Assembly: GCA_009746045.1 (NCBI GenBank)
Contig: RPFO01000106.1
Span: 1,633,711-1,697,710 of the forward strand
DNA: 64,000 nt
From: Mesostigma viride
Lineage: Eukaryota > Streptophyta > Mesostigmatophyceae > Mesostigmatales > Mesostigmataceae
Direction of reading: 5' to 3'
The position numbers and the translations under genes are program-made. Below are positions 2,902-57,537 of the stretch, piece after piece. Each line of letters opens with the position of its first letter. Position 1 is the first letter of the stretch. The notes under the pieces were generated by a model. The model did no database searches. It had not been told where the DNA came from and saw nothing but the letters and a program-made list of their open reading frames with translations.

Positions 2902-3692
2902 ACTGAAGAACCTTGTATTGCACTGCTGCCTTCTGCACTAGCTTGGTCAAAGCATCAGCAGGATTGTCAACCCCAGGGATATGCTCAATATTGGCCAAGG
3001 AGGACAACTCCTTAAGAAGGAGATAATCCAAGTCCCTACTTCTGGCCATCTGCCTGTGCACAAACTGCACCATCCCCATGGAGTCTGTTTTTAGAAGAGT
3101 GGTAACCTGAAGTGGCCAAGGAGTGTTAGAAGTCATCTGATGAAGCAACTCCTTCAGATAAAGGCTTGTGTGAATGCCTTCACAAATAGCCCTGCATTCT
3201 GCCACATCACTGCTGACAGCCACCCGTTTGTGCAGGCGACTAAACCAGCTCACCAAACTCCCCAGGCCTTCCTGTCTGAGCACAAAGAGCCCTGCAGCCC
3301 TGAGTTATTATAAATAGTGACGGAACCTTTTTGCCACTTGGGCAATTAGGTCCGTCACTATTTATCCGGCGAAAACCACTCGCCGGTATCTATTCCGCGT
3401 TAAGTTCACGTGAACGTGGCGCGGAATTTGATACCGGCGAGTGGTTTTCGCCGGATAAATAGTGACGGACCTAATTGCCCAAGTGGCAAAAAGGTTCCGT
3501 CACTATTTATAATAACTAAAACGTCGTAGTGTGGGGGCCGATATCTATATCGTACCACTGATACCTACTGCATGTAGTACCGAATCTCGCCTTAACGATA
3601 TTCCAACCGGGCATATTTTCCCTTCTGGCACTTTCGTTTGGCCTTCTGGTATCAATTCCTTCCGGTATTCGGAAATACCCGTGTCACCACAG

Positions 3693-3703
3693 GGATTCGA
3701 ACC
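3693..3703 (-). other. tRNA T-arm/B-box-like motif, left arm of H1
   Basis: GGTTCGAATCC on the - strand, set in GGGGG-TTCGAAT-CCCTG, which pairs at four of five T-stem positions. CTAAGACC, resembling a leucine-type anticodon loop, lies about 20 bp upstream across the module edge. This is consistent with a tRNA-derived 3' half or a Pol III B box; no complete cloverleaf was found. Confidence 0.5.
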
Positions 3704-3953
3704 CCCGACTTACGAGGTCTTAGTTATTATAAATAGTGACGGAACCTTTTTGCCACTTGGGCAATTAGGTCCGTCACTATTTATCCGGCGAAAACCACTC
3801 GCCGGTATCTATTCCGCGTTAAGTTCACGTGAACGTGGCGCGGAATTGATATCGGCGAGTGGTTTTCGCCGGATAAATAGTGACGGACCTAATTGCCCAA
3901 GTGGCAAAAAGGTTCCGTCACTATTTATAATAACTAAGACCTCGTAAGTCGGG

Positions 3954-3964
3954 GGTTCGAATCC
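3954..3964 (+). other. tRNA T-arm/B-box-like motif, right arm of H1
   Basis: The inverted partner of the motif at 3693-3703: GGTTCGAATCC preceded by CTAAGACCTCGTAAGTC. Both arms keep it exactly, whereas other arm positions differ slightly. Confidence 0.5.
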
Positions 3965-4453
3965 CTGTGGTGACACGGGTATTTCCGAATACCGGAAGGA
4001 ATTGATACCAGAAGGCCAAACGAAAGTGCCAGAAGGGAAAATATGCCCGGTTGGAATATCGTTAAGGCGAGATTCGGTACTACAGTAGGTATCAGTGGTA
4101 CGATATAGATATCGGCCCCCACACTACGACGTTTTAGTTATTATAAATAGTGACGGAACCTTTTTGCCACTTGGGCAATTAGGTCCGTCACTATTTATCC
4201 GGCGAAAACCACTCGCCGGTATCAATTCCGCGCCACGTTCACGTGAACTTAACGCGGAATAGATACCGGCGAGTGGTTTTCGCCGGATAAATAGTGACGG
4301 ACCTAATTGCCCAAGTGGCAAAAAGGTTCCGTCACTATTTATAATAACTCCCTGCCCCTGACCTTGGAGACCCGCCTGCTGTCCATTGAGCTATCCACAT
4401 ACAGCTCCATGCAAATGGGTTGTGATAAATCCACTGCAGACTATTGTAATACG

Positions 4454-5070
4454 AGTTGTATGAGAGTGAATGCCAAGAATTCCGCCATGGTTCTTGCAGG
4501 AAGTTGCCTTTATTAATACCAAGGAAACACAGACGTAAGTCACGTCACTTCCAAGACTGCACGCAGCACAGGCGACAGGGTCGCAGTGCCAAGAGAACGT
4601 GCACGCAAGAACTAGCGTCCCGGTGCGACCAAGTCACACATATAGGTTGTTAGGGACGCGTCCAAGTAATCAGCTGCACTGTCACAGCTGAACTGTCAAT
4701 CAATTGATTACACAGACTCTGGCACGCCTTTGGCGCGCAGATCTATCAATTGTCCATACGGCTAGTCCTGTGGACCTATCCGTACACTGCTCAGCATCAA
4801 TTGTCTCATAGGTCCTGGCGCGCTACAGTGCGCCTACCTATCAATTGACCATCAAGTCCTGTACAAGTCCTGTCAACGTCCTGCGGACTATCAAAGTGAC
4901 ACTTGTACATCCTGTGTCCGTACGCGCCCACAGTGGCGCGCCGGGTACTGTCGGCACAGCCTAGGAAACGTCATAACTTTTACGTTCCTTAACCAAATGA
5001 GGCGTTCAAGGTGCCGTTGGAAAGAGCGTAACAATCTCTATCCATCTAACGTAAATTCTTTACGTTAACT
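4454..5070 (-). repeat. Element B LTR, left copy (617 bp)
   Basis: On the - strand it begins AGTTAACGTAAAG and ends CATACAACT. Nearly identical to 24909-25529 and 35393-36009. The adjacent higher-coordinate sequence reads, on the - strand, AAGAAGGGATTGG directly before AGTT, which is the polypurine tract. The lower-coordinate side reads CGTATTACA, the primer-site position. Confidence 0.85.
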
Positions 5071-6010
5071 CCAATCCCTTCTTTTCTTTAGGGATCACAT
5101 CCCCTGCCAGGGACCCTTGAAGTAGCTTGAAATGTCCTTCACTCCAGCTTGAAGCTTGAACAGATGTCTTTAATGGCCATTGCCATTCCCCCAGCCTTTT
5201 CTTTTAAGGAACTGGAAAAGAAACAGATCTGCCACAGGGAAAACCATTCCATGAGAAATGGATAAAAACCTATGGAAGTGGCATTACATAGTACCACCAG
5301 ATATTAGAAGCACACAAATTAAATACATACAGGTTAATTCTATGAGGTCTTCTCCAGGAATTAATCCCATCACCTCGGTAGAGCCTCCAGTACAATGACC
5401 TTCTGGCGGTGAGTTACATTAATCCCAGATACTAATCCCATAAAACCCAGTACATATTCAATATAAGTACAATAAATCCATGACAATTAAAATACCACTT
5501 GACAAAAAGGCGTATTACAATAGTTTGCCTGTCATTCTCTCAACAGGGGTCTATTGGCGCCCGTCTTACGGCGCCCGTCTACTTGCCAGATGGTAAACTG
5601 CCACAGCAAACAAATGACAAAATGAAACACATAGGCAACAATTAAATCCTGCCCTGGGGAACTAGGGAAGTCTGAACAGGCAAACACCTGAACAGGCCAG
5701 CTTGTAGAAACATAATACCAGGGAATCGAACCCCGCCCTATAAACCCCAGAATAAAGGTTCCCAGACCATTGTGAGAGGTATGTACAAATATACATTTCT
5801 TTTAAGATAGAATACATGGTCTGTAATGGACCTGTCAACCTTGTGTAGTCAACAGCATGAACCCCAGCCAAAGCCTGGCTGTATCCTGATTAAAATCAGA
5901 GTGAGTGTACCATGGTCCATGAGCCTTAGTACAGACTAAAATACAGGTATTATGCCAGTCACAATGCTGACACTACCACACAATCTGCTCTCCAATGCCC
6001 TATAACCAGC
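5071..6010 (-). other. Element B 3' UTR, left copy
   Basis: About 940 bp between the RNase H stop and the LTR, nearly identical to 25530-26478. No ORF of substance. It contains GGGGTTCGATTCCC on the - strand (5721-5734), resembling a tRNA T arm with a fully paired five-base stem, and ends in the polypurine tract. Confidence 0.75.
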
Positions 6011-6254: not shown

Positions 6255-6952
6255 AGTTAACGTTCCTAGCAAACGCAATGTGAAGGATATGGTTGCAATG
6301 CAGCAATGTGTGAATATGGTTGGAAACGGAGCTTTGTTAAAATTGGATAATGTTACAGCGCTCACACACTTGAGGCTTGTACACGCGCTTGCCAAGTCAA
6401 GGCACAACACGTGAGGCGGGCTCGCAAGAGATCTACCCAAATGGCACTGGCCTATTGTTTATATACTTGTGCACTGTGCTTGCTAGTCCTGAGCAACCTA
6501 AGAGGTATGCTCAGTAATAACACCCCCGGTACAGTATTCACTACCTGTACAGCGCCCAGCTCCTATACAGTAGGTCTGCCATACAGGCACAGTGACCACA
6601 GAGCACAGTCCACAGTGACTATTGCATCTGCACCTAGAAGTCCAGGACTAAGCCTGCGGTACCAACAGACCACAGGTTAAGGTTCCTATTTCCTGCGTAC
6701 GACGTATTAATCCAATACCGTCGTAGGTACAGCACCTAATTCCTGTCAGCCCAGGAATTACTGTCGACCCCATATGTCGTCGGCAAATATTCACGTCCGA
6801 CTTAGAAGAACAGCCGGCTCGCGCTCGCGCGCGACCGGGAAGTCGGAACGCCATAACTTTCTTGATACTTGTCGGAATGAACTCGTTCCGGTGCCGCTGG
6901 AATCGCAGAGATATGCCGAATCAGGATCACGCCAATGCGCTTGGCGTTAACT
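6255..6952 (-). repeat. Element C 3' LTR (698 bp)
   Basis: Ends AGTTAACG and CGTTAACT, perfect 8-bp inverted termini. Matches 23921-24615 with a few substitutions and short indels (for example an extra 'tcta' near 6430). The - strand sequence before it is the polypurine tract, separated by the CACTA insertion. Confidence 0.9.
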
Positions 6953-7290
6953 CCACACTATACTTTTCGTCCGAGGGTGGTAAAAAGGATCCGAGGCGTA
7001 AATTACCAGGTGGTAAATTACGCCTCGGCTCATTCTTACTATATACATCTCACCTACGATCCCACGCAGTAAGTTATCGCTGAGATCCCACCTACGATCC
7101 CACGCCGTAAGTTACGAGGTGGTAAGTTACGTCGTGGTAAGATTCCGACGTGGTAAGATTCCGACGTGGTAAGATTCCGACGTGGTAAGATTACGACGTG
7201 GTAAGATTCCGACGTGGTAAGATTCCGACGTGGTAATGTACGTACGGTAATTTACCACCTGGTAGTTTACGATCCCGGTACTCGGTCCCG

Positions 7291-9577
7291 TAGGTTACGA
7301 CGTCGTATGCTTCTCGCGTACACTACCGGTACTACACTATCATGTCGCTATGTCGTTCTGAATTGCAGTACGCATGTCACTTAGAATTTCACTGAAGGAA
7401 TTTCACTTATCATTTCGGTCAACCTAACCCCTAACACCCATTTACTCGGAAAAAAAAATAAAAATGAATGGCATTTGCAGCAAGGCTCATGCAAGACAAG
7501 TTTCTATTTCATAAACCATTTCATTATTACATGCAGGATTACATGTCATGCACAAAAATCCAACGCCTTCACAGAAAGAGCATATCAAGTCTTCTGACGA
7601 CAATATCAAGTCAATATCAAAGTCGTGGCTTCTCTTCGTGGCTTGAAATACTGTTTCCATGCAGTGCTTAGGACAGCTCCGGGGATGTCGGCACCGCACA
7701 GAAGCTCCATCCGGGAGCAAGTGCGCCGGGGGAAGATGTTGTACATCCAGAGCTCGATATGTGCGGGATGCCGTCGTGTTGGAAACCGAGGTGTCTGCAC
7801 AGAATTCCGCGCGCAGGCAGCTTGTGCCTTTACGGGGGAAGACCTGCGACACAAAAACCGTGTCCGGACAATGCAATACGGAGAAATGGCAACGGCAGAT
7901 GGAGTCGGCTAAGGCCGCTTGTAAGGAAAGTGATTTTTAATGCACGAATAAATGTATAATGCATGCTACATCGCCATCGCTTGGGCGGTGAAAAGACAAG
8001 GACCAACCACATGCCCCCACCTACCCTTCGTGCATCCCGCCCTTGACGAGGCACAACCATGTGCCCCCACCTACCCTTTGTGCGTCCCTCCCTTGACAAG
8101 AAACAAGCACGTGCACCTATCTAACCTTTGTGCATCCCTTCCTTGGCAAGGAACAAGCACACCCACCCACCTACTCCACATGCATCCCTCCCTTGACAAG
8201 GAACAAGCACGATCACCCAGCTACCCACTAGCACGGCAGCAAGGCAGACCTTACAATGGCAAGTGATGTTTATCGGTAGAAACTGTTAGACAACTAGCAA
8301 ACGAGCCAGCCGGTGAAGAGCAAGGCACGCATGCAAGGAATTTGTCGTTGCCTATGTCTACGCTTGAGTTTGTCACTGCAGTTGAAATCTGCATTTGCAT
8401 CAGCAGGCCCGATCGAACCCCATGTCGCCACCCGCATTTCCACTTATACTTCACGGCCCCTTATTCTTCTCTTGTGCCTGCCTTTGCCCTAACTGTTACC
8501 CTAGCATCTGCCCTTGCCCCTACCTTTTGATCCCCAGTGTTTGCCGTTGCCCTCATCCTTCCCCTAGTGCCTGCCCTTGTCTTCATCTTTTCCCTTGTGC
8601 CTGCCCGTGCCCTTGTCCGTTCCCTCGTGCTTGACTTGTCCTAATCTCTTTCCCTTGCGCCTGCCCTTGCCCTTATCCGCTTCCCTTGTGCCTGCCCCTG
8701 CCCTTGTCATTTCCCTTGAGCCTGCCCTTTTGGCAAGCACAAGTGCCTTAATCCTTTCCTTGGCCTTGTGCTTGCTCTTCCAGTTTCCCTTTCCTTTGCT
8801 CGTGCGGTTGCCTTTGCTCTTACCCGGGTGCTTGCCCTTGCCGTTTGCAAGCTGCATTATTGTCTTAGCAAGCTAGCAAGTGCAAACTGGCACTGAGCCA
8901 GAAATGCAAGCAAAGCAGCCAGTGTAAATAAGGATGGACGGGAACAGTAGAAAGCTAGAGGTGGCTACGGTGCTAGAGCTCATGGCAACAAGGTGGTCCC
9001 ATTCTTGCTGCATTGGGTGCGTTGCGTGGGTGGGATATTGCGATAGGGGGACATTCTTGCCTTGGTTGTGTTTTCACATGCACCCGGTGCTTGAATTTAT
9101 GCGTGCAAGGGTGGCTGGTATCCCAACCAACAGCCCAAGAGGAAAAAGAGTGCTTAGAAAGCAAGAATGACTTTATGTTGGTAATAGCAGTGGTGGCGGC
9201 AGCAAAAACTGTTGTTGTAGATGCAAGCTACAACACTGCTGATGGTTTCTCACACTAATGTGGATAATGATAATGCATGCCACTTAACGGGACCATATAA
9301 ACCACAACAAGAATAATCGTGAGAGCAAAAGAAAGAGGAGTACAAAACGGCCGGCTTACCTAGCTACAGCAAAAAAATTGCATGAAAAACAAGATAACTC
9401 ACCTTTGTCGCAGCAGTGACCATATGAGACAGCTCACAAAAACTTGTTGATCCTTGAAACTTCCTGCTTGAAGGCAGCCACCAACGGTCTGGATTTTTCA
9501 CCCCAGTCCTTCTCAACAGCCAAGGGAAAGGGAAAGAGAGAGGAGGGGTGCGGGAGGGACAAGAGAGCGGGGGGTGG
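7291..9577. other. CACTA interior: low-complexity and unidentified sequence
   Basis: 7291-7460 holds nothing recognisable. 7487-7960 has overlapping ORFs on both strands with no recognisable domain. 8000-8230 has about four degenerate 51-bp repeats built on 'cccttgacaaggaacaagcac'. 8430-8850 is a degenerate C/T-rich minisatellite of 'tgcccttgccctt' type. 8850-9577 shows no gene or clear repeat. Confidence 0.5.
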
Positions 9578-10985
<1,408 letters not shown>

Positions 10986-11535
10986 GGTGGTGGTACACAA
11001 ATACCGTACAAGTGATACACAAATACCGTACAAGTGATACACAATTGCAGCCAGGACAACAGCGGGTCGCTGCGTACCTGCCGTGGGAAGGAGGACAAGT
11101 GATACACAAATACGCTACAAGTGATACACAAATACCGTACAAGTGATACACAATTGCAGCCAGGACAACAGCGGGTCGCTGCGTACCTGCCGTGGGAAGG
11201 AGGACAAGTGATACACAAATACGCTACAAGTGATACACAAATACCGTACAAGTGATACACAATTGCAGCCAGGACAACAGCGGGTCGCTGCGTACCTGCC
11301 GTGGGAAGGAGGACAAGTGATACACAAATACCGTACAAGTGATACACAAATACCGTACAAGTGATACACAATTGCAGCCAGGACAACAGCGGGTCGCTGC
11401 GTACCTGCCGTGGGAAGGAGGACAAGTGATACACAAATACGCTACAAGTGATACACAAATACCGTACAAGTGATACACAATTGCAGCCAGGACAACAGCG
11501 GGTCGCTGCGTACCTGCCGTGGGAAGGAGGGGGGT
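10986..11535. repeat. 109-bp tandem satellite, five units
   Basis: The marker 'gcagccaggacaac' recurs at 11047, 11156, 11265, 11374 and 11483, exactly 109 bp apart. Each unit contains two or three short sub-repeats of 'gtgatacacaaata'. Units are nearly identical, pointing to recent amplification. 109 is not a multiple of three, so ORFs through the array shift frame every unit and are not genes. Confidence 0.95.
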
Positions 11536-11549
11536 GGTACACAAATATC

Positions 11550-12260
11550 CGACCTATATATTAGCAATAGCCGCCGCCTATCAAACAGGTCCTATTCATC
11601 ACGAGCGTCAACGCCCCGTCATCGCCCCGTCATCGCCCGGCCGAGGGCCTTAACCTGTTAACTCTTTATTCGGAGTGATAGTCAACGACCTATACTACCA
11701 ATAGCTGCCGCATATCAAACATGGGCTTATCATCACGCCCGTCGAGGGCGATGACGGTGACGACCGTCACCGTCATCGCCCTCGACGGGCCAACATCTAA
11801 ACTCTTCTCTTAATCAACAATCTATGTTACCAATAGCCGCCGCCTATCAAACAGATCCTATTCATCACGCGCGTCAACGCCCCGTCATCGCCCCGTCATC
11901 GCCCCGTGATCGCCATGCCGAGCCAGCCGAGGGCCAACCTCTTAACTCTTTACATTTGTATTCGGAGTAGTAGTCAACGACCTATATTACCAATAGCCGC
12001 CGCATATCAAAAAGGTCGTATTCATGACGCCCGTCGAGGGCGATGACGGTGACGCCGTCACCGTCATCGCCCACGGGCCAACATCTAAACTCTTCTCTTA
12101 ATCAACAATCTATATTACCAATAGCCGCCGCCTGTCAAACAGATCCTATTCATCACGCGCGTCAACGCCCCGTCATCGCCCCGTCATCGCCCCGTCATCG
12201 CTCCGTGATCGCCATGCCGACTGCCGAGGGCCAACCTCTTAACTCTTTATTCGGAGTAAT
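11550..12260. repeat. Higher-order repeat of two alternating units (about 130-160 bp each)
   Basis: Unit type 1 carries 'caatagccgccgcctatcaa' plus runs of 'ccccgtcatcg'. Unit type 2 carries 'gccgcatatcaaa' plus an inverted pair around 'gggcgatgacggtgacg'. They alternate 1-2-1-2-1 starting near 11560, 11690, 11828, 11989 and 12116. The type 2 centre can form a strong GC hairpin. Confidence 0.8.
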
Positions 12261-13832
12261 AGTTAACTGCCGGCATTGCCATACAAGAAGAAGCTCTCGA
12301 TCCTAGGTATAGACTACCTCGGGTATCATCATCGTAATTGCTAGCATCGAGATCATTCATACCTACCGACGATGGCCAGCTGCAAAAGAAAAATGTCGAC
12401 CAACAGACAGGACCTATCGCCGGGAACCCTCAAGGCAATAAGGGCGAGACAGGCTTTCACCGTTAAGTAAAGTTGTCCACATCGTGCTAAGGAATTTGTG
12501 CTAATCTATGAGTACCTATATGGACACTTTGTCGCATTTTTTACATGGCAAATAAGCGATGTATGTGTCATGTAGGCTGCCATTGGTGCATGCATGCATG
12601 GGCCAGCAATGATGGTCAGAGGTACATTGTGCCTATGAGATAATCATCGATTTGTTGATCAGCAAGTGATTCATTACGTGAGACAACAATATGTTTGGGG
12701 GCTAAGCTTCTTACATTGGTCACATGGCCCGCCATAATTGTTTTCTTATGTGTTTAAGGTTAGGACTCTGTTCATGACTGAACGTCATGAACGCGCTCTA
12801 TTCATGACATTGATTAATTGATTTTAATTAGTCTCATGTCCATGTTGGGGGACCGGGATCTCTGAATTCCCCAAAGAAGATATAGTGGAAGTTAGGTGCC
12901 CCAAGACGTCAATATCCGTCAAGACGTCAATAACAACATGTATGTCCACAGCTCAGCTAGTAGTCTAAAATATGGGCCTCGAGCTACTCTTGCACGCAAG
13001 CAATGCCTATCATCAAGGATTAATTAATGCCTATCAACAAGGAGACAATCATGCTTGTTAAATTTCCTAGGACCCACAACTGGGGGGTCGTAGTCTTTGA
13101 CAATGTCCGACTGGGCAACGCTACTAATCCTACATATCCGAGGTCCCATGTCTGAATAAGAGGGGTTGAGCGGATGACGCCAACAGTGTCTGTGCTCTGC
13201 ATGTCAGCTAAAATCATATCGCGGAGACAAACATATGGCGGTATGTCCAATGTTGGCCACTGCGTCGCCTAACAGGTTCGTTCTTACATGGTCGGCAAGG
13301 GCCTGACCATGTAAGAAGATATCTCCCTGGCTGGCCAGTCCACAAGGAACCAGCAGGGACCTCATCTGAATCAACCTGATTTATTAACTAACTACTTAAT
13401 TCATTTATTAAACTCATGCCCCCATTAGGGAGTCAAGGAGCATTAGTTAACCCCGATTAATTAATTAATTAATTAATTAATTAATTAATTAATTAATTAA
13501 TTAAACACGTGCTCCCGTTGGGGAGTCACGGAGCACCGAAGTGCTTTTAATCCCTGTGTGTGCACAACAGGAGAAAGGGCAGAGACCCCCAGTCTCCTTC
13601 ATGCCTAAGGCATGCCACAGCTGCATTCGGGAACGCTAGCTAAACGGACACGCTAACGATCCGGCAATCTGTGGGTGCAATAAGACCCATGTGAGCATGG
13701 CATAACACTAGGAGCGTGGGCAAGTAATCTCATCATAGCCAGGACGTAGCATGGCTGTACTAGGACTATACCCCGATTTCTGATTCTCCCGATTTCTGGC
13801 CTGCGCTGGTTGTCTCCTTGATACCCCGATCA
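12261..13832. other. CACTA interior with dispersed-repeat segments and (TTAA)n
   Basis: No gene seen. An AATT/TTAA run occupies about 13457-13504. 13510-13750 is closely similar to 29600-29830 inside transposon T2, around 'gagcaccgaagtgctttt'. 13776-13825 contains 'cccgatttctggcctgcgct', shared with about 31180 and 48558. Confidence 0.6.
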
Positions 13833-14086
13833 ATGGATGGATGGATGGATGGATGGATGGATGGATGGATGGATGGATGGATGGATGGATGGATGGATGG
13901 ATGGATGGATGGATGGATGGATGGATGGATGGATGGATGGATGGATGGATGGATGGATGGATGGATGGATGGATGGATGGATGGATGGATGGATGGATGG
14001 ATGGATGGATGGATGGATGGATGGATGGATGGATGGATGGATGGATGGATGGATGGATGGATGGATGGATGGATGGATGGATGGAT
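13833..14086. repeat. (ATGG)n microsatellite, about 63 units
   Basis: Almost uninterrupted ATGG/GGAT tetranucleotide array. The Met-Asp-Gly-Trp ORFs are products of the repeat. Confidence 0.97.
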
Positions 14087-21592: not shown

Positions 21593-21625
21593 CCTCCAGG
21601 GTTCAGGGATGTGTGCAGGCTCAAG

Positions 21626-45509: not shown

Positions 45510-45520
45510 GGTTTCGAACC
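45510..45520 (-). other. tRNA T-arm/B-box-like motif, left arm of H3
   Basis: GGTTCGAAACC on the - strand, downstream of CTTAGAACCGG at the module edge. Inverted partner at 57194-57204. Confidence 0.5.
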
Positions 45521-45601
45521 CATGACTTCCGCGCCGCGCCGGTTCTAAGTTGTACAAGCTATAATGCTTATACTTTCTATGCGCAAACCTTTTAGCTAAG
45601 G

Positions 45602-46030: not shown

Positions 46031-46076
46031 TGTATTCACAACAGTCAACATTACCGTTGACCATTTTTCTGGGCTC

Positions 46077-47286
46077 ATGGCGCGTGGCGCGGAGCGAACG
46101 CCAGCTGCAACCCAGGACCAGGGAACGCAAGCATCAACTCCGGCGGATGGGAGTGGCGCAGCCACCGTGGCGACTGAGCCAGGTGGTGGCTCGGTCAGCA
46201 CAGCTCCGGGGCAGCAGTCAGCACCAACTGCCCGGAAAGTTTTCAAGAAAGAAGAGCTGCCAAGTAAGCTGCCAGAAATTCTGACGCCGTCCGCCGTGGA
46301 GGAGTTTATTAACAGCCTGGGCGAGCTCCGGCAGGACTACAACGAACTGTCCGACGCAGTTTTCCTCACCAAGCTGCGCCGGTCAGAGGTATGCAACGAG
46401 GCTACGGGCAATGCGGACGTGCGAGGGGTCATTATCAACGCCAGCAAAGAGGCGTGGTCCTGGCCCGACACAGTGAAGGCCCTGCAAGAGGTGCTCGACA
46501 CCTCAAGCTTTCCTGACGAGGAAAAGGAGGGGCAGGCGCTGGTGCGCAACCTGTCGCTTGACCCCAATTACCTCAGCTCGGACATGGCCAAATTCGCGGC
46601 CCAGGTCCGGAGCAAGGGTGTCTTGAAGCACATGAGTAGCGAATATTTACTCAGCGCAGTTCTGGATGCGCTGGGGCTGACGCCAGAGAGCCGTGCCAAT
46701 GTCAAGGCCGGTCTCGGCATGAAAATTGCGCTAGCTTCTTCCGTGGTAGTGGGCACCCCGGACGACCAGAAACGGTTCAACGCAGCCATGGCGCACGTAC
46801 CTCCGAGAGATGTTCAAGGACCGGGGCGGCCCCAGGCGTAACAACAAGCTGCCGACAGTTGCTCAGGTAAACCCTGTGCCTGCCTCGACCCCGCCAGCAG
46901 CTTCTCTGTCGGACTTGACCACTCTTGTTACCCAGCTGTCCACGACGGTGGCCGACAACGTGGTGCGAATGTTGGGTGGCAAACGCCGAGCTCGCGGTGG
47001 TCGGCACAACCAGAACGCGTCCAGCAAACGCGGGCCGGGAGGCGGTCAGGGCAAGCAGCCTCGACAGGAGGGCGGCACTGGCAGGCAGCAACAGCAGCAG
47101 GGTGGTGTCCCCAAGGAGAAGGTCGTCTGCGAGCGGTGCACCGGCGTGGGGCACACCGAGGCCAACTGCACGCTGCGGCTGGACCTCGGCAAGGCGACTC
47201 GAGTGTGCCGGCGCTGCTGGGCGGTTCGGCTTCCTGGACACGACCCCAACACATGCCGCGCCCCACGGCCAGCCATGCCCAAGTGA
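46077..47286 (+). CDS. gag: Element D Gag with zinc-binding C-terminus (one +1 shift)
   Basis: ATG at 46077, 46 bp after the LTR. The Ala/Thr/Pro-rich N-terminus leads into a helical capsid region (VEEFINSLGELRQDYNEL, VKALQEVLDTSSF). The first frame ends at 46841; the second (open from 46810) carries on with YLREMFKDRGG, Gln-rich and Arg/Gly-rich linkers, CERCTGVGHTEANC (a CX2CX4HX4C knuckle) and a second cluster CRRCW...PGHDPNTC. A +1 step near 46795 would join the frames; it may be a mutation, a sequencing error or programmed. The stop is TGA followed by C at 47284-47287, in frame with pol. Confidence 0.8.
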
Positions 47287-47831
47287 CGTCATAGAGGTGA
47301 TGTGTGTCGCGGTGAGTCGGCTAGGCGTGAGGATGCTGTGCCTTGTAGTCCTAATGTTCCCACGTCAGTGGTTCAGAATGGAAGTGCAAGTGCTGCAGCT
47401 GATCAGGAGTGCGTGCCCAGCGTGGTCGCAATAGAGCCTGAACACGCCCTTCCGGAGCTCACCCCTTCAGGTGAGATAGTGCCGGCAGATGCCGAGGTAG
47501 CCCCTCACGTAGACGTGGAGTTGGGTCGCCGCCTCAGTAAGGCCTCACTAGAGCACATTGCCGACAGGAATGCACATGCAGAGAGCTTGGCGGGGCAGGT
47601 GCCTAGCATAGAAGGGGATGGCACCACCCCCACGGCCATAGGATTGCGGATGCTTGCTCACCAGATTCACCTTGCGGTGGGTCATGTGGCGGGGCAAACG
47701 CTAGACTGGGCGACTCGGCTTATGGGGGCGCCGGGGTTGAAGGTCGCTCAGGCGGAGTTAGAGGAGTGCCACGCATGCGCAAGTGTCAGGAAGAAGCGTA
47801 GGCGCTGGCATGCTACGACTCCTTCCCCGTA
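47287..47831 (+). CDS. pol: Element D Pol, first part: N-terminal region and integrase zinc domain
   Basis: Frame is continuous with the end of gag across the single TGA at 47284-47286, so Pol could be made by stop-codon readthrough. It contains IHLAVGHVAGQTLDWA and ECHACAS, the His and Cys pairs of an HHCC integrase zinc site. The coding frame stops at the mariner-like insertion; removing it and one TA (47830-47831) continues the frame exactly into 53092. Confidence 0.82.
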
Positions 47832-47868
47832 CAGTACCAACCCGCGGTAACGCAACTAGTTACGCAAC

Positions 47869-49340
47869 TAATCAAAAAAAATTAAATGACGTATTTATAT
47901 GAAGGAAGTGTAGGGCTACCCAACGCCACCTTCCGTTGCGTAAAAGCTTATGTCTACAGAAAGATACGGGGTCAGGAAGAATCGCCATAGCCAGTTCCGC
48001 AAAAGGCACTCACCGATTTTGCGGTTCCGCAACGAGGGAGAAACGCAACAAACATGGGGTACCCTCGATGTAGGGGCCAATAATGAACTGACGCGTTGCG
48101 GTTAAAAAGGATGCGGCGGAAGTCAGAAGTCTGAAATTGATCGATCCTCAGTTATTACGTCTGGCTTCCTCGTATTTACGAAAGGTGCGTAAGGGCTGCC
48201 ACCGGTACGTACAGTACGTAGTACCAGGTCCGCCATGGCATATCGACGTGTTAAAATTTGGCATACACGCCAAAATTAATTTTGCCCGACAGGCTCATGA
48301 AATATAATGTGTTCGCTTGGACTGTTTATATGTACTGAAAGCATAGCATCATTGACGATGGCTTGTGCGAAATCCTCACATTAATATGTAAAGTACTAAT
48401 CGTGGATCGGACGTGCATAACGTCGCTCCACACGTAAGCCAGCCATAATTTCAATGCACAAGGATACACATTTCCATCACCATTCATCTTCATCATCCTG
48501 AACGACTCGAAAACGCGGAAAAGATAACGGCAGGCTCGAGCTACCATGGTCCGGATTCTCCCGATTTCTGGCCTGCGCTGGTTGTCTCTTTGATAACGTG
48601 CATGTACCAAAAAATTTGTGGGCGCGGTGTACGTATTTTTCACACTTGATCATCGTGAACCGGCGTGTACCCTCGTCCGGCGCACGCATTACATACTACA
48701 TACACGTGTACGTACGACAGGACAACAGCTATCTATCAATGATGATAGATAGCTGTTTGTCCTGTCGGTCATTGATAGATAGCTGTTGTCCTGTCGGAGA
48801 TAGTACAACAATTACAATACATCATCACTTGATCTTAGCTTGCAATTTATAAACATTAAATCATCATTTTTAAAAGGAACAAATATAATTGATCATCCAC
48901 AAGTCCGCCTGTAAGTGGGTGCACACGGGTGTACACTACGGGTGTACACAGGTGTACACGCCGGGTGTATTATGTAGTAGAAACAGCCCGGTACATGCTC
49001 TACTACCAGTCTGCCACACGCTAAGTGTCGTTGGTATGTAGCTAGTGGCGTGACCCACAACGTCGTTGTGGGTCACGCTCCACTTCGGTCTACTGCCACA
49101 CGCCGTGTCGGCGCTTGGTATCTACATCTATGTGGTGGCGTGACCCACAACGTCGTTGTGGGTCACGCTCCACTTCGGTCTATGTACTGCCATGCCACAC
49201 GCTAAGTGTCGGCGCTTGGTATGTAAGCTTATCTTACTGTATTTAGTCATTTTAGTGGCGTGATCCACAACGAAGCCGATACATGTGTACCCTCATCTGA
49301 CACTTATGTACTAATACCGTCTCTGACACATATGTAAGTA
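47869..49340. other. Mariner-like element, left interior: shared repeats and palindromes
   Basis: 48420-48596 is shared with T2 (31066-31226) and partly with the CACTA (about 13776-13812). 48716-48797 contains three alternating copies of 'gctatctatcaatgat' forming nested hairpins. 48905-48970 has repeats of 'gggtgtacac'. 49020-49280 has repeat units each with the palindrome 'gacccacaacgtcgttgtgg'. No gene. Confidence 0.6.
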
Positions 49341-49346
49341 CTGGAA

Positions 49347-49775
49347 ATGCCGTCTCCCAAGGTACGCAATCTACCGACTTGCGTGCTCAAGGGGCCGGTT
49401 TTCCCCCGGGTGCGCACTTCTCAGAATCGCACGACCACACCGCGCGCAACCTGGAGTGTGCGTTTGAAAGAAAACAATGCCATTTCCAAAGGTGTAGGTA
49501 CGCAATCTATCGACTTTACTAGGGAGTGCGTAACTAGGGAGTGCGCAAGGGGCCGGTTTCCCCCCGGGTGCGCACTTCTCAGAATCGCACAACCACACCG
49601 CGCGCAACCTGGAGTGTGCGTTTGAAAGAAAACAATGCCATTTCCAAAGGTGTAGGTACGCAATCTATCGACTTTACTAGGGAGTGCGTAACTAGGGAGT
49701 GCGCAAGGGGCCGGTTTCCCCCCGGGTGCGCACTTCTCAGAATCGCACGACCACACCGTGCAACCTGAAGTGCGT
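49347..49775. repeat. 158-bp tandem repeat, about 2.7 units
   Basis: 'cgcacttctcagaatcgcac' recurs near 49411, 49570 and 49728. The last unit breaks off in 'caacctgaagtgcgtgaatt'. ORFs along it are incidental. Confidence 0.85.
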
Positions 49776-50630
49776 GAATTGGCACCGTGCGCGTTTCGGA
49801 AATGCACGACTTAGCCATGGCGGCTTTGCACCCGTGCTTGCAATTTACTGTACGTTTGCGGACGAATTTCCCGGCCAAACTCAGGAAATAGAGCTTATAC
49901 GTCCCAAATATGATTCGGATCAATTTTTAGCTCGCGGGGATGCGATTTACCACGTGCCGTCAGTGTTCTTGCTGGGAAAAACTGCGATCAGGCAGGTTCG
50001 ACGGAATTGATTACTACAAGTGCTTTACGGCGCAACCCGGCGGGTGTCTAGGTTTATTTAATTACTTGTTATCATGCATCGTCGTTGAATATAGGCAGCG
50101 GCAGTAAAGATGTGACGATTTTGACCACCCTGTCACATCACAGCTTGTGTGCCGCAAAGTGCCGCTTTTGCGGGCACTGCCTGGGCCAAGGTAACGTTAG
50201 CCATGCAAGGTATGGCTGGTTTATCGTTCCCCCATGGTTTCCTGACGTTTGTAAATGAATTTAATCTTGTGAGGCGTTGTCACTTTTCAGCCTTGATGAT
50301 CTTTCTCGACCGTTGCCTGGCCCTCTCTAAAGCCCTCTTTTTTTACCATGCAAATGCCACACCATGGTGTGGTAGTGCATGTTTCTAACGCTAAATGCGT
50401 TGAATAACATTCATAGATGTTATTTATTCTTTTGCTACGTTCATATTGCGTGATTGTTTGGCCATGGGCTGCTTCAAGGGTGCTTTCAAGCTTATACGGG
50501 TGATAGAAAATCTTGGTGACAAACCATGGGCATAATGTGCCAGTCAGTATGCTGGCCATGTCATGTCAAAATAAACAGTTTAGCCAGGAGGAGGAGGATT
50601 ATAAGATGCTGAGCTGGGCTTACAACTGTT
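49776..50630. other. Mariner-like element interior, no recognisable gene
   Basis: Unique-looking sequence with no ORF bearing known motifs. Confidence 0.45.
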
Positions 50631-50830
50631 TAGGGTTTAGGGTTGTGATGGTTGGATGGTTGGGGGCTGCAGCTAGCGTGCGTGGATAAATAGTGGTTGG
50701 ATGGTGAGGATTTGCTGCCATGTGTGCATGGATGGTGGTGGGATGGTGGGGGGTTGCAGCCATGCATGCGTGGATGGTGGTGGGATGGTGGGGGGTGCAG
50801 CCATGCGTGCATGGATGGTGGTTGCAACTG
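50631..50830. repeat. Minisatellite (about 42 bp), inverted relative to 51330-51900
   Basis: Units of 'catggatggtggtgggatgg' type with 'ggggttgcagccatg'. They are the reverse complement of the minisatellite on the other side of the ATTGA array. Confidence 0.8.
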
Positions 50831-50877
50831 CCCATTGTTCATGATCCAAGAAATTTACGGCTAGACTATGCGAAGTT

Positions 50878-51240
50878 GAATTGAATTATTTAAATTGAAT
50901 AGAATTGAATTGAACTGAACTGACTTGAATTGACTTGAATTGAATTGACTTGAATTGAATTGACTTGAATTGAATTGAATTGAATTGAATTGAATTGAAT
51001 TGAATTGAATTGAATTGAATTGAATTGAATTGAATTGAATTGAATTGAATTGAATTGAATTGAATTGAATTGAATTGAATTGAATTGAATTGAATTGAAT
51101 TGATTGAATTGAATTGTCAATTGAACTGTCAATTGAGTTGTCAATTGAATTGTCAATTGAGTTGTCAATTGAATTGTCAATTGAATTGTCAATTGAATTG
51201 TCAATTCAATTGTCAATTGTCAATTGTCAATTGAACTAAA
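50878..51240. repeat. (ATTGA)n array grading into a 10-bp 'gtcaattgaa' repeat
   Basis: Pentanucleotide array to about 51112, then a decamer array to about 51235. Amino-acid repeats of Asn-Ser-Ile-Gln-Phe in ORFs are products of this array. Confidence 0.95.
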
Positions 51241-51329
51241 TTTCGTCTCATTTAATCAGTAAGCTTACTTTAATCCATTAATTATAATCCATGACTTAGA
51301 AGTATCAAGAAGTCCCTACATCCCCACCA

Positions 51330-51905
51330 TCAAGGACTCCCTACACCCCCATCATCCAACTACCATCCACGCACGCATGGCTGCAACCCCCCACTATCAA
51401 ACCATCATCCACGCACACATGGCTGCAGCCCACCACCATCAAACAACCATTAATGCATGCATGGCAGCATCCCCCCACCATCCAACCACCATCCACGCAT
51501 GCATGGCTGCACCCCCCACCATCCAACCACCATCCACGCACACATGGCTGCAACCCCCCATCTTCCAACCACCATCCACGCACACATGGCTGCAACCCCC
51601 CACCATCAAACCACCATCGGCACGCATGCATGGCAGCAAAACCTCACCATCCAACCACCATCCACGCATGCATGGCTGAACCCCCCACAATCCAACCACC
51701 ATCCACGCACAACACATGGCTGCAACCCCCCACCATCCAACCATCATCCACGCACACATGGCTGCAGCCCACCACCATCAAACAACCATTAGTGCATGCA
51801 TGGCAGCAATCCCTCGCCATCCAACCACCATCCACACACGCATTGCTGCAGCCCCCCACCATTCAAGCACCATCCACGCACATACGCCATCACCTCCTAC
51901 AGTAA
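51330..51905. repeat. Minisatellite of about 42 bp, more than twelve units
   Basis: Units of 'catccaaccaccatccacgc' followed by 'acacatggctgcaacccc', with variant units. Orientation is opposite to 50631-50830. Confidence 0.88.
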
Positions 51906-53054
51906 TGTCCAACCACCATCCACAAAGCACGGGGCTTATGGATTACAAGGCATTCAGCACGCCTGAATGCATGTAAGGCATGGACCACAAAATTTGCAGA
52001 TGGCATGCTGAGAAAAGTAAAATCTGATTAAAATGTAGCAATGCCGTTAATAACAGCAATAACGCCTAGAAACTGACCAGTCTTTTGCACGCTTCTTGGA
52101 ACAAGGACGCCGCCACCAGGCAGGTCAGGTCGGTTTCCTGACTACGCAATATAGACTCTCTAATACAAACTTTAAAAAATAAATGAAGCACGTGCAGCAA
52201 AATCAATGTCTTCCTGGCCAGTTCTCGACAATCTTACAAGCACGCCACCGGAAACGTTAGTCAAAATAGCAAAAGCTGCGGGAAATTTGGCGAGGAAACA
52301 AAACGGCGAACAAAACGGTAAGAACATCCCGGAGATGACGCTAAAACCAAGCCATAACGGACTGTTCAAGCGCAAACAGATTGGTAGATGAGGTGCAGAA
52401 AAAGAGCCTTCCGCAGCAGGCCTGATTACCTGCCTGGCACGCGAGGAAAGCGAGTTAACCATGGCAGGCTGGAATGCGCTTCGCGCAGGCCTGCTTACTT
52501 TACCTCCGAAGGAAACCGGAAATGGCCACAAATCAAAGCTAATTCGCTTGATTCCTATTTCCTCACTTTAAACCCCTCCCTTCTGCGTCGTTCAATACCA
52601 GGAATCTTGGCTATCACTCTGGCAAGAAGCCAATCTAATATATTCATCGCGGCCAGATTTGCGAATCAGACCCCCTCGCAACCGTGGGTTAAAGAAGGGC
52701 AGCGGTCTTTCATACCTAATGCATATTTCGTCAACAAAACATCTTTTGGAGTATCTTTCATACAGCATCGATCTCCATAACTTTTTTGCATTTCGGCCGA
52801 CAAATTAGGCAAGTTTTCATGGAACGCGCACCGCCATGGCCACCTTCGCACGTATACACTACACAGCCAGGCCCCTTTTACGTTCTGTACTTCTGTAGGT
52901 ACATTACGTGTTGGGCCGGTGGTCAGCTCGTAACAAGTCAGTCAGTCTGTCTCGTGCGGAACTTCAAGTACGAAATTCGCCACCACTTTGGGCCGTATCG
53001 GTCCTTGGTAGTTACGCAACAAACATTCGATCGGTCGCCGTGGAAAGTACCATT
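51906..53054. other. Mariner-like element, right interior, no transposase
   Basis: ORFs here (for example 52388-52780, + strand) show no DDE/DDD transposase motif or other recognisable domain. Confidence 0.5.
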
Positions 53055-53091
53055 GTTGCGTAACTAGTTGCGTTACCGCGGGTTGGTACTG

Positions 53092-56000
53092 TACCGGGGG
53101 AGGTTAGTGGGGGATGTCATGCATTTGGAGGAGGGGGACTATTATTTGGTCTTGATGGATCGCTATACCAAGTTCCTAGCCATCGAGCCCCTGCCAAGCA
53201 TGGTAGAGGAGTCCTTGTGGCGGGGGCTGCGCATTGCCATGTCTCACTTCTTTCCCATTTCTGAGGTCATGTTGGACCAACAATTTGATTGCATTGTGGG
53301 GCGGGAGGGCTGTGAGATGGTGGTTATTGCTGGGCGGCAGGACCATGGCAACTTGGGGCTGATTGATAGGCACATCAGCAGCGTAAAGGGCATGGCAGCC
53401 AAGCAGCAGGCCAGCGGGTTAGGATTCAAGCCCGCAGGGCAGCCTTATGCACAACGCGCGCTGTGGTGCCGCTTGCTCATGGACAAGTACAACAGCCAGG
53501 TGCTTTTCAAGCTGCCCCAGGGACTAGGTCTTATCACCGCGTGGGGGCTGCAGTCGGGCATTTACCCTCCGGACGTGGCAGACCATTGGGAGGCCCACCT
53601 CGCTACCACCGCTGAGGTTAGGCGGCAGTTAGACCGCACCCAGCCTGACTTGTCGCAGGAGTGGGAGCTGGGGGAGTTGGTCTTGTTTCACAAGGAGAAT
53701 TCCTTTGGCAAGCGGGGGCAGATGCAAGGGCCAGGCATGGTGGTGGATTTGGACTGGGTGCATAGGCGGGTGAAGGTGCACTGGGAGCATAGGGACTATC
53801 TCATCCCGTGGGATAAGGTGTATCGGTACAAGGCGTCCGATGCCCAGGTCCAGGCGGCCAAGGAGCACAGCCGCCAGCTCGGTTGGGATGTGGATAGCCG
53901 GCCGGCCAAGCGGGCCCGGCTGGAACCTGTCCTACCCACCCCACTTGGGGTGGCTGTGCATGATGCGCTTGTTGCCCACCCCCCTGCAGGCGCCGCGCCG
54001 GAGCAAGTCCCCGGGGTCGACGCGGGGGCGCTACCTCCCCCTCCCCGCGACCCCAGCAGCGCCCACCGTGGCGGCGCCAGACACATCGTCAGGCGCGGGC
54101 GTGGGCTCCCAGCTGGCCCACGTCCTCCGACAGCTGCTCCAGGCGGACAAGCTCAAGGCGGCGGCAGCGGGGGGTGCGGCACAAGTCAGCCGCGTCATGC
54201 CAGATAAGTGCCCCACCGTTGTGGCTGAAGCTCATGATGTTCCCTCTAGGCATATTGCGGCCATAGATACCATGGCAGGCGTGTCTATCACGAGCCCGGC
54301 GGCGGCCGAGGCCTATTACCCGTTGCTGCCCAGTAGTTGGAAGGAGGTTGCGGGGTTTGACGGGCAGCGGGCCTATAAGGTGGCTGGGCAGGTGCTCATG
54401 CCCATCCTAGGGGTAGATGTCCCTGTGCAAGTGCTAGAGGGTTACAAGGGTATCACCCTCATAGGTAACCCTTTTGTTTCCCTCCCCGGGTTTTCTGTGT
54501 CAGCCGGCTTGGTGACCCTCGAGGGGGTGGGGAGCATAGGCTTGTACCAATACCACGTAGCGCTTGCAGCCCTCACGGGCCGGGGTCCCCCCGAGGCTAT
54601 TAATCACCCTGAGGATTATGCCACTGCAGTAGGGGCCATTCGCGGGGCGGAATATACGGCAGAGCCGCTGGTAGCCGATGTCACGCAGCCGCAGAAGTGT
54701 CACCTCAGCAGTCTTGGCATTTTTCCCTGGAGCATCGCCACTAAATCTCCTGTTAGTTATCCGCAGTTTAAGGAGGACTGCCGTGACCCTGTCAAGTTCC
54801 ATAAGTGGCGCGCGGCTTTCTTGCGCGCGCAGCTGGAGTGGGCGATGTATGGGGTGTATGGGGAGTTGATGGAGGTGCCGCAAGGGGCGGTAAAGCTGAA
54901 CTTGAAGTTTGTGCTCAAGTATAAGCAGGTCCTCCCCACTGACCCTGTCACATTTCATGTACGGCCCTGTGTCACGGAGTTTAGGGGCTCGTCTGAGTTG
55001 TCGGAGGAGGAATTGTTTACGCCCGGGCTGTCGCAGACCACTAGCCGGGTGTTAACATCGGTGTTCTTGGGGCTTTTGGATGGGGGTTGGACTATGCCAT
55101 GGCCTGCTCAGATTTTCAGCGGGCCTTTCTCCATAGCGACCCGGCAGTGGCCGAGGAAGTGTGGCGTGGCACGGTGTATGTGGTCAAGGTCCCTTTGGTG
55201 TGGCAGGGGGAGCTGCGGTGTGTGTACTTGCGGCTTCTCCTTGGTGTGGAGGGCCTGCAGTCTAGCCCCATCATCTTTCGCAAGACGGCTGAACGCATCT
55301 TTGCTAGCATGGGGGCGGTGTTTTCCCGCATCGATAGCAACCTCTTTCACATCCACACACCCAACCCACACGAGCCCGCGTTCATGCAATGGCATGGGGA
55401 TGACTGGCGGCTTATTGGACCCCGGGCGTGGGTCCGGCAGTTCATAACCGCTGTGGCCAAGCTTTTGCCCACTAGCCGCACGTTGTGGCTGGACCCCGAC
55501 ACCCCCGTCCCTTTCTGTGGCCTAACCTACACTTTGCACCGCACACCGGTTGGCTGGTGCATTGACATGGCGGCCAAGCAGGAATACGCCGACAAGCTCG
55601 CGCAATCGCTGCCTGAGCGGCTGGATGCGTCCGCGGGACCGCAATTGCGCGGCCAGCTGGGGTGGCTCGCGGGCACGGTGCGACCCGACCTGTCCATCTA
55701 CGCGCGTGCGCCCGACGCCGTGCTTGCGGGCATGGGAGCGCAGCATCTTCGGACGCAAGTCTTGGCGTCACCGGGCCTGCGCGTGTGGGGGGTTGATATC
55801 ACCCGCCCGGTGGCAATGACCATCTACTCTGACGCGAACCTGGAGTCGCGTACCATCACGCAGCTGCGCGCGCGGGAGGCGGCCATCTTTTTTCTTGATA
55901 GCCCCACTGGGCAGCCCACTATTGTCGACTGGTATAGCCGCATCCATCAGCGGGTAGTGGTAGACAGCAATCGCGCGGAGTGTCGCGCGTTCATTTCCGC

Positions 56001-56295
56001 TGTCGACCATGCGTGTTATGTGCAGCATCTTTTGCAATGGATTGCGGATAAGGCCCGCGTGGCGCTGTCGCTCCGCATGCGGCTGTGCACAGATAGCAAG
56101 TCAATAATTGAGTTTCTGAATAACCCGCTCGCCTCCACCACCAAACTAGATTACCTTGTGTTGGCCGAGTCCGCCACGGTGTTGGATGAGCGGCGGTGGA
56201 TCCCCGAGAGCGAGAATATTGCCGATGCCTTGACCAAGCCAGCGATGCTGTCGGGGCCTCAGTACAAGCTGCTGCGGCAGCTCATGATGACATGA
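53092..56295 (+). CDS. pol: Element D Pol, second part: integrase core, protease, RT, RNase H
   Basis: Integrase core: LVGDVMHLE, LMDRYTKFLAIE, VMLDQQFD and GLIDRHISS; the last catalytic position is Asp where elements B and C have Glu. The integrase tail includes KENSFGKRGQMQGPGMV. After a shift around 53980, a protease-like region has AAIDTMAGVSIT and TLIGNPFVSLPG. RT: LKFVLKYK, CSDFQRAFLHSD, VEGLQSSPIIF and QWHGDDWRL. RNase H: TIYSDANLES, SNRAECRAFI, LCTDSKSI and ENIADALTKPA, ending TGA at 56293-56295. A second shift at about 55085 lies in a G run (gatgggggttgg), where one more G would keep the frame; both shifts could be sequencing errors in homopolymers. Confidence 0.88.
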
Positions 56296-56632
56296 GTTTT
56301 TTTTACCGTGTGACCTGTCGTCTTTTTGCATGGGAATGGGCGCTTCTTTCATCTGTGAATACATTTCCCTAGACCTGACAGGCGGCCAGTGTGCCTAATA
56401 ATGATGCATGTGGTGCAGTTGCACCCAAGTAGAAAAGGAGGCCGGGAGCAAAGCCCGGGTGTTTTTGGCGTGCTCAGATCCCAGCGTAGGGCACCCTCCT
56501 TGGGGTTTAGGATTTGGGGACGGTCAGTGTGCCGTTACGTGTTTCTCTACTTGAACGTACGTAGGGTCAGTGCTACCCTATTGCCCCTCGCTTTAAATAA
56601 TTTATGATAATTATTTAAAAAGAAAGTATGGG
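56296..56632 (+). other. Element D 3' UTR and polypurine tract
   Basis: Short non-coding stretch ending in 'aaaaagaaagtatggg' immediately before the 3' LTR, the polypurine-tract position. No T-arm-like motif was found here, unlike the 3' UTRs of B and C. Confidence 0.6.
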
Positions 56633-57061
56633 AGTTGTGCTCCCGAGGGGCATCTATCCGCTGGCCGGTAGTCGCCGGCCTGGGCGCCTAGTCAGGTGGG
56701 CATCAAAGATTGGTGTCTAGATGCTAGTCGGTGCCTAAGCAAGGTACGGAAGCCAGTGCGCGCCGGGACGGTCAGAGAACCGACGCCCTCGGTAGCACAG
56801 ATCCGCTGAGTGCCGGTAGTCTCGGGTTAGAGGCTCGAGCATGCACTATCGGGTAGCCTACCGGTAGTCTCGGGTTAGAGGCTCGAGCATGCCTTATCGG
56901 TTAGCGCCGCGCCGCTGAGCTCCTTGCGGCCTGGCCAGCTGCAAGGGTTCAATAGCAATCAGTGGCGGCTGCGGGCTCAGCCTCCCACAATCGGTTCCCC
57001 AAACAACAAAAATCCCGTCTCCATCGCCGGCGTGCTAGCCAGCGGTGAAGGGCATTCAACT
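56633..57061 (+). repeat. Element D 3' LTR (429 bp)
   Basis: Near-identical to 45602-46030. Ends CATTCAACT followed by the target duplication TAAGG (57062-57066). Confidence 0.93.
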
Positions 57062-57193
57062 TAAGGTTAACGCATATTCTTACATCCTGCGCAGGATGTA
57101 AGAATATGCGTTAACCTTAGCTAAAAGGTTTGCGCATAGAAAGTATAAGCATTAGCTTGTACAACTTAGAACCGGCGCGGCGCGGAAGTCATG

Positions 57194-57204
57194 GGTTCGA
57201 AACC
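57194..57204 (+). other. tRNA T-arm/B-box-like motif, right arm of H3
   Basis: GGTTCGAAACC, with CTTAGAACCGG upstream at the module edge, as in the left arm. Confidence 0.5.
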
Positions 57205-57537
57205 TCGTGGGGCCAGTGCCGAGTAGGGATTATTTGGGAGGATCCGCCGGGGCACCGGTCGGACCTAATTAATCGCCTAGCGAGGTAGATATCGGACCTT
57301 CCCGGGATTAATATCGAATCAGTAATTCGATATCGGATTAGTAATTCGATGCGGAAGTAAACCCTAGTTAGGGAGCCGCTTAATATTCCGCCCCAACGCG
57401 CAAAGGTTTTAAGTTGTACAAGCTACTGCTTATACTTTTTATGCGCAAACCTTTTAGCTAAGGTTAACGCATATTCTTACATCCTGCGCAGCTAAAAGGT
57501 TTGCGCATAAAAAGTATAAGCAGTAGCTTGTACAAGT

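Follow-up and report, generated by a model that had tools for sequence, protein, structure and literature searches.

What moves a hairpin whose outermost bases are those of a retrotransposon? The question is raised by a 64,000-nucleotide stretch of the genome of the streptophyte Mesostigma viride (GenBank assembly GCA_009746045.1, contig RPFO01000106.1, positions 1,633,711 to 1,697,710 of the forward strand), called the window here, which contains three palindrome-rich insertions of mutually unrelated sequence (H1, H2 and H3) and three families of long terminal repeat (LTR) elements (A, B and E). An earlier note on this DNA proposed that the integrase of the LTR lineage mobilizes the hairpins. 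We tentatively favor a wider reading, to which we would not yet give even confidence: H1-H3 may be non-autonomous retroelements that use both the reverse transcriptase (RT) and the integrase of a copia-like lineage with AGTT...AACT LTRs, and that carry their own primer RNA. The ends, duplications, promoter boxes, terminator positions and complementarities described below are read from the sequence of this one 64-kb window.

All three hairpins begin with AGTT; H1 (3303..4349) and H2 (43898..44615, forward strand) end with AACT, and H3 (45198..57537) ends with AAGT, the single mismatch that the earlier note had reported. Direct reading and/or a script likewise recovered the 5-bp flanking duplications that it listed, CCCTG for H1 (3298-3302 and 4350-4354), TGTAT on both sides of H2 and ATATG on both sides of H3. 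The host sequence of H1 is one copy of a repeat, and two other copies in the window retain the empty site: the joined flanks with a single CCCTG (40 nt) matched exactly at 24790 and 26894, and H1 is therefore a genuine insertion. No empty site for H2 or H3 was found within the window. Both lie inside F (40711-58834), an ordinary TG-starting LTR element with a gag-like open reading frame (ORF; 41714-42721 and on), in which we noticed no pol among the ORFs and no clear duplication at the ends.

The earlier note had also suggested looking for further AGTT...AACT palindromic modules. A scan of the window for such palindromes (30-299 nt, tip stem of at least 11) gave eight matches, of which the six with stems of at least 20 are all modules of the hairpins and the other two have tips of 11 and 13 nt; the scan misses the central module of H3, which is split by element E, and its last module, which ends in AAGT. 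AGTT is not the commonest palindrome tip, since a stricter count over all 4-mer tips found it in only 4 of the 239 maximal palindromes in the window, compared to 52 with AATT (CAAT had 10). None of these 239 single palindromes has a 5-bp duplication of its own, as expected if the inserted unit is the whole element and not the module.

The same ends delimit the LTRs of A, B and E. Element A (24909..36009, reverse strand) has a 5' LTR at 35393-36009, a 3' LTR at 24909-25529 and, within a tandem unit, a further LTR copy at 4454-5070; it is rearranged and its duplication is not visible. Element B (6255..24615, reverse strand) has LTRs at 23921-24615 (5') and 6255-6952 (3'), a pol ORF at 18038-21625 and the duplication GAAGT. 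Element E (45602..57061, forward strand), a complete LTR element sitting within the central module of H3, has LTRs at 45602-46030 and 56633-57061, pol ORFs within 53068-56295 and the duplication TAAGG. The earlier note had named four LTR elements, A to D, without coordinates; its observation of AGTT...AACT LTRs stands for three families. The ends depart from the TG...CA of Ty1/copia LTRs in 3/3 families, and the 5-bp duplication, another Ty1/copia feature, is present in B and E and cannot be judged in A.

By sequence, the pol ORFs of A, B and E appear to encode very divergent copia-like proteins. The order of integrase before RT was judged by eye from the ORFs; the only RVT_2 match was in A, under the cut-off (27.8 vs 31.6 bits), and the submitted ORFs of B and E had no match in Pfam. 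Among the matches listed, single-protein searches gave one each: for the E pol, a protein of Mesostigma viride at 99% identity (EukProt jgi/Mesvir1), and for P0001, an ENA entry at 69%. A high content of LTR elements has been reported for M. viride (PMC6947507). A pol alignment (A1) gave 22 pattern-matching stretches in viral contigs and 38 in genome contigs, none confirmed in either set, and no match in the protein database among the matches listed; this last search also missed P0001 and was thus insensitive. The three module patterns and the T-arm block described below each had 0 matches in viral contigs.

Beside the full element A lie 2.1-kb units in tandem, at 3107-6254 and 24613-27000, each comprising its RNase H end, 3' untranslated region (UTR) and LTR; one of the units is split by H1 and bordered by B. 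A CACTA-like element (6955-17229) with inverted repeats of about 61 bp (CACTATACTTTTCG...) and a possible 2-bp CA duplication is inserted at the junction between the polypurine tract and the 3' LTR of B.

Four-nucleotide ends and, wherever it can be judged, a 5-bp duplication are thus common to the hairpins and the LTR lineage, and we consider it likely that the two share an integrase. The internal structure of the hairpins shows what else an element of this kind may contain. H1 and H3 follow the plan M1-a-M2-a'-M3, in which the modules M are palindromes, and arm a' and module M3 are the inverses of arm a and module M1, respectively. In H1, M1 (3303..3517, forward) is an AGTT...AACT palindrome that matches the reverse complement of M3 (4136..4349, reverse) at 214 positions with 1 gap; arms a (3518-3721) and a' (3936..4135, forward) agree at 200 positions with 0 mismatches and a single 4-nt gap; and the central module M2 (3722..3935, forward) has halves that disagree at 10 of 214 positions, close to the centre, a property that M1 shares. 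In H3, M1 (45198..45320, forward) and the inverse of M3 (57412..57537, reverse, with the AAGT end) agree in 122 of 126 columns, the rest being 1 mismatch and 3 gap columns, and arms a (45321..45547, reverse) and a' (57167..57411, forward) at 226 positions, with 0 mismatches and 20 gap columns. E separates the left part of the H3 central module (45548..45601) from its right part (57067..57166; both forward). H2, unlike H1 and H3, has no central module: its terminal modules (43898-43974 and 44539-44615) are direct copies, 76/77 identical, and its arms (43975-44029 and 44484-44538) are 55 nt long and perfectly inverted around a unique centre. The palindromic terminal modules of the earlier note are present throughout, and its common plan needs amending for the E insertion in H3 and for H2.

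H1 and H3 are inverted dimers, in which one arm was probably copied from the other. The two halves of the H3 central module agree except for a 2-nt gap, and the differences between this module and M1 are therefore mirrored, as they would be had fold-back copying made one half from the other; no such sign is seen in the central module of H1. Rolling-hairpin replication of the parvovirus type would likewise yield M-a-M-a'-M dimers; because the ends and duplications fit the LTR lineage, we have set this possible explanation aside, without a search for a Rep-type gene.

The earlier note had drawn attention to AAAAC or TAAAAC adjoining a module and to a T-arm-like TTCGAA motif, and both recur in 3/3 hairpin families. 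They can be understood as RNA polymerase III (Pol III) signals: AAAAC next to a module is a terminator read from the opposite strand, and TTCGAA is the B box of a tRNA-type promoter. The window contains 8 copies of the tRNA-gene B box/T-arm motif RGTTCGAWNCC, where 0.52 would be expected. H1 and H3 have two each and H2 has one (44061-44071, forward); the remaining three are in the 3' UTRs of A and B, two of them being one A site in duplicate. In H1 and H3, A boxes lie within the central module in both directions, 52 nt (H1) and 76-78 nt (H3) upstream of the B boxes. The H1 A box TGGCAAAAAGG is present on each side of M2, at 3902 (forward) and 3755 (reverse), and the B box of arm a' is at 3954-3964; in H3 the A boxes are at 45598 (reverse) and 57118 (forward) and the B boxes at 45510-45520 (reverse, arm a) and 57194-57204 (arm a'). 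Four pairs of A and B boxes 25-95 nt apart were found in the window, and H1 and H3 hold all of them, compared to a mean of 0.02 and a maximum of 1 in 100 first-order Markov sequences. In both arms of both elements, the sole TTTT after the B box is at the edge of the outer module: it abuts the module in H1 (GTTTT) and stops one base short in H3 (GGTTTTA in arm a'; arm a begins TAAAAC). By their sequence, H1 and H3 have a split tRNA-type promoter, with the A box in the central module and the B box in the arm, and their transcription by Pol III is likely.

We do not claim a functional tRNA in the hairpins, only promoter boxes and a likeness to a T-arm. ARAGORN found no tRNA gene in the window, nor, whether or not introns were allowed, in H1, H2 or the two flank pieces of H3, and Rfam had no match in the window at the gathering score. 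At relaxed E-values, the module/arm junction of H1 scored 17.4 bits as tRNA (cut-off 29) and 21.7 as mascRNA (cut-off 42.5), the T-arm motifs of B and A scored 15.1 and 16.0 as mascRNA, and the H2 and H3 stretches had no tRNA match whatever. Matches to miRNA precursors scored better but stayed below their own cut-offs; any long hairpin gives these, and we rejected them. The arms start with CTAAGAC (H1 and H2) or CTTAGAA (H3), which by our own candidate reading could be a tRNA-Leu anticodon loop. The Pol III boxes of H1 and H3 would also suit tRNA-derived elements of the short interspersed nuclear element type, moved by target-primed reverse transcription. Such an origin is very improbable, given 5-bp duplications in 3/3 hairpins, defined AGTT...AACT ends and no A-rich or simple tail at the ends that were read.

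A second feature common to the hairpins and the LTR lineage is an inverted copy of the primer position near the 3' end. The bases right after the 5' LTR, where the primer-binding site (PBS) of an LTR element lies, have an exact complement of 9 nt in A, 10 nt in B and 10 nt in E, once per internal region, always in the 3' UTR downstream of pol and ending exactly at the LTR edge. These are CGTATTACA (35384..35392) and TGTAATACG (25972..25980) in A, and CAAATTACAA (23911..23920) and TTGTAATTTG (17459..17468) in B, all on the reverse strand, and TGTATTCACA (46031..46040) and TGTGAATACA (56354..56363), in register with the LTR edge, on the forward strand in E. A complement at least that long arose in 21 (A), 26 (B) and 4 (E) of 20000 Markov-resampled 3' UTRs. 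When the first 80 nt after the LTR were compared with the 3' UTR, only a start at the edge yielded at least 8 nt, with offset 0 in 3/3 (offsets 1 and 2 give truncated forms of this match and were disregarded). Between families, the primer position of one matched at most 7 nt in the 3' UTR of the other; the PBSs of A and B are unlike at positions 2-3, and the 3' UTR of each carries the corresponding change. The E 10-mer is also present once outside E, at 2461. No such complement was found in F, the TG...CA element, which is a weak control because most of its internal region is lost. The corresponding complement in the hairpins extends over 55 nt in H2 and over the entire arm in H1 (about 200 nt) and H3 (about 230 nt), with TTTT as its last bases at the module.

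The 3' UTRs of A and B also share the T-arm/B-box motif upstream of this complement (A, 26183..26193; B, 17832..17842; both reverse), in a block with 32/35 identical columns that is their best conserved (score 53, against 30 for the polypurine tract and a maximum of 30 in 200 shuffles). Hairpins and LTR elements have a common order of parts: end, primer position, T-arm/B box (in A, B and H1-H3, not in E), complement of the primer position, end. We also considered a hairpin immediately inward of the AGTT at the LTR start and rejected it as too weak: the stem is 9 bp in A, 7 bp in B and absent in E, and the stems of A and B are equalled at 1.3% and 3.5% of 373 AGTT sites.

A junction in the tandem units may bear on how the complement is used. 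At 24897..24908 (forward; duplicated at 4442-4453), TATTGTAATACG, which adjoins the edge of an A LTR, takes in 3 nt of 3' UTR beyond the 9-nt PBS match and has 2 nt of microhomology besides. Minus-strand cDNA begun from 3' UTR RNA could have left such a fossil, although 3 nt are few.

Most LTR elements start reverse transcription from a host tRNA. The LTR-lineage integrase might be used while a host tRNA or half-tRNA serves as primer, with the 3' UTR complement joining the ends of the RNA and the Pol III promoter serving transcription alone, as in Helenus or Cassandra. There is precedent in Ty1, in which a 14-nt complement (CYC5:CYC3) links the 5' region to the 3' UTR (PMC5454406), and copia elements may prime from tRNA anticodon loops (PMC10886601); by our own candidate reading, TTGTAA in the A and B complements could be a tRNA-Tyr anticodon loop. 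On the other hand, the pairing takes up the primer position, flush with the LTR edge, in 3/3 families, and would therefore compete with a tRNA; the matched differences between A and B and the 3 extra nt at the 24897-24908 junction also speak against this explanation, which we judge unlikely while ranking it as the foremost alternative.

The reading that we favor, in which the hairpins supply their own primer, would work as follows. The central module and the arm starts of H1 and H3 would form two divergent tRNA-type Pol III promoters, from which each transcript would run outward and halt at the TTTT by the outer module. The 3' end of the transcript (...GUUUU) would pair with the AAAAC... that follows the opposite outer module and prime the minus strand. 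Because the arms are inverted, the same RNA could also prime the plus strand at the other module, replacing both the host tRNA and the polypurine tract. The outer modules would serve in place of LTRs, and would need to be palindromic because strand transfer wants direct repeats while inverted arms give inverted ends, and palindromes are both. Finally, integrase of the AGTT lineage would insert the product and leave 5-bp duplications. A, B and E may follow the same logic in small, through the 9-10 nt of 3' UTR complementary to their own primer position. In this scheme we infer the transcription, priming, enzyme sharing and movement of the hairpins. A primer role for the hairpin RNA is a well-founded guess. 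A fuller version is possible but more doubtful: that the sole gene of the element is its own RT primer, a Pol III RNA priming both cDNA strands, and that the autonomous partners self-prime from the 3' UTR.

The ends and 5-bp duplications common to H1-H3, B and E argue for this scheme, and several observations weigh against it. No A box was found in H2, which has an early TTTTT at 44096-44100, 25 nt beyond its B box, in addition to the TTTT at the border. Full-length hairpin transcripts would require read-through of TTTT. E has no T-arm motif in the RGTTCGAWNCC scan. No A box accompanies the motif in A or B, and TTTT occurs there ahead of the PBS complement; a Pol III primer is therefore unsupported in these two, and the 3' end would need to be made by cutting, as would that of E. 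One copy of A, the tandem one, has a TTTTT that starts 2 nt past the complement. M1 and the central module of H3 are set apart by 4 mismatches and 31 gap columns, and the latter is therefore not an LTR copy.

Two further observations of this kind would suit foldback or miniature inverted-repeat DNA elements moved by a transposase of unknown family that duplicates 5 bp. The AGTT...AACT ends of such elements would resemble those of the LTRs by convergence. First, no polypurine tract was seen before the last module of H1, H2 or H3 (the preceding sequences are CGACGTTTT, GCAAAAGTTTT and AAAGGTTTTA). Second, beyond their ends the modules have no clear likeness to the LTRs (best local scores 14-21, without a shuffle baseline). 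The long terminal inverted repeats of the hairpins are also what such transposons would have. Convergence would need to account for four-nucleotide ends common to three hairpin and three LTR families and for the same duplication length in 5/6 (A being unjudgeable), and Pol III boxes, the terminator position and a PBS-type complement are unexpected for a cut-and-paste element. We regard a DNA transposon origin as improbable.

The proposal that LTR-lineage integrase mobilizes the hairpins thus fits the ends, the duplication length and the order of parts. The earlier description of the hairpins as minimal non-coding elements with palindromic LTRs holds insofar as the outer modules are palindromic; it needs amending in that H1 and H3 are inverted dimers with Pol III promoter and terminator signals, the H3 central module is not an LTR copy, and no polypurine tract was seen. 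If our reading is correct, reverse transcription could also start from a primer that the element itself encodes, either in a gene of its own or within the 3' UTR, and Pol III RNA genes, palindromes and LTR elements would be joined in a single mechanism that accounts for palindromic non-coding elements with retrotransposon-like ends. The reading makes exact, testable predictions for RNA 3' ends and cDNA 5' ends.

Elsewhere in the window, a long ORF (38349-40463) is repetitive and rich in Thr, Ser and Gly, with no Pfam match at E 0.001. A G+C-rich stretch (62162-63303) contains several overlapping ORFs, one of which resembles, by eye only, part of the endonuclease/RT of a long interspersed nuclear element. 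Dispersed repeat pairs are present at 48422-48595 and 31046-31219 (94% identical) and at 13478-13768 and 29572-29837 (82% identical).

In the open-licence literature, we found, among the matches listed, neither palindromic LTRs with Pol III promoters nor a separate element-encoded primer RNA. The priming scheme has partial parallels. Self-priming LTR elements (Tf1/Sushi, plant TAR, Tcn1) take the primer from their own RNA, as we propose here; in these elements the transcript is cut in its 5' LTR to release it (PMC6317226). That scheme is excluded for A, B and E because their LTRs hold at most 5 nt of PBS complement (longest 4 in A, 5 in B and under 4 nt in E); their 9-10 nt are in the 3' UTR. 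Like that of A, B and E, the Ty1 CYC5:CYC3 pairing is exact and connects the 3' UTR with the 5' region; it promotes reverse transcription but is not at the PBS, and the Ty1 primer is tRNA-iMet (PMC5454406). Fungal GalEa copia elements with a Conserved Hairpin Site have no tRNA-type PBS, an inverted 9-bp repeat at the PBS position and a 5-bp duplication; they differ in their LTR ends (TGT...CA) and in that the second copy comes 12-41 bp downstream instead of in the 3' UTR, and their hairpin is unexplained (PMC5445492). LTRs of the Zam clade have AGTTA...TAAYT instead of TG...CA, but belong to animal Metaviridae (PMC3601003).

In function, the hairpins resemble terminal-repeat retrotransposons in miniature (TRIMs), being short, non-coding and dependent. 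Cassandra TRIMs likewise have a Pol III (5S) promoter in a minimal LTR element, but with ordinary direct LTRs. Helenus and Ajax (TRIMp3; Kojima 2024, PMC10886601) are short, non-coding elements with a tRNA- or 5S-type Pol III promoter, thought to be mobilized by autonomous LTR elements. Helenus has two LTRs in which the tRNA-like sequence lies, a polypurine tract and a PBS that in most cases fits a host tRNA, and its fungal and plant members have 5-bp duplications (same source), as do 3/3 hairpins. As to its two direct LTRs, the modules of H2 are direct copies (76/77), and the outer modules of H1 and H3 are inverted but palindromic. Helenus has boxes A and B inside the LTR, but H1 and H3 have the A box in the central module and the B box outside it, and H2 lacks an A box; nor do the hairpins have the polypurine tract before the 3' LTR. 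Because of these two differences, in box placement and polypurine tract, we did not classify the hairpins as Helenus, from which their palindromic modules, inverted arms, promoter straddling module and arm, and predicted RNA end matching the PBS position also set them apart. To the earlier statement that no described class is known to have this combination we add that the nearest relatives in kind are TRIMs with Pol III promoters: Helenus, Ajax and Cassandra.

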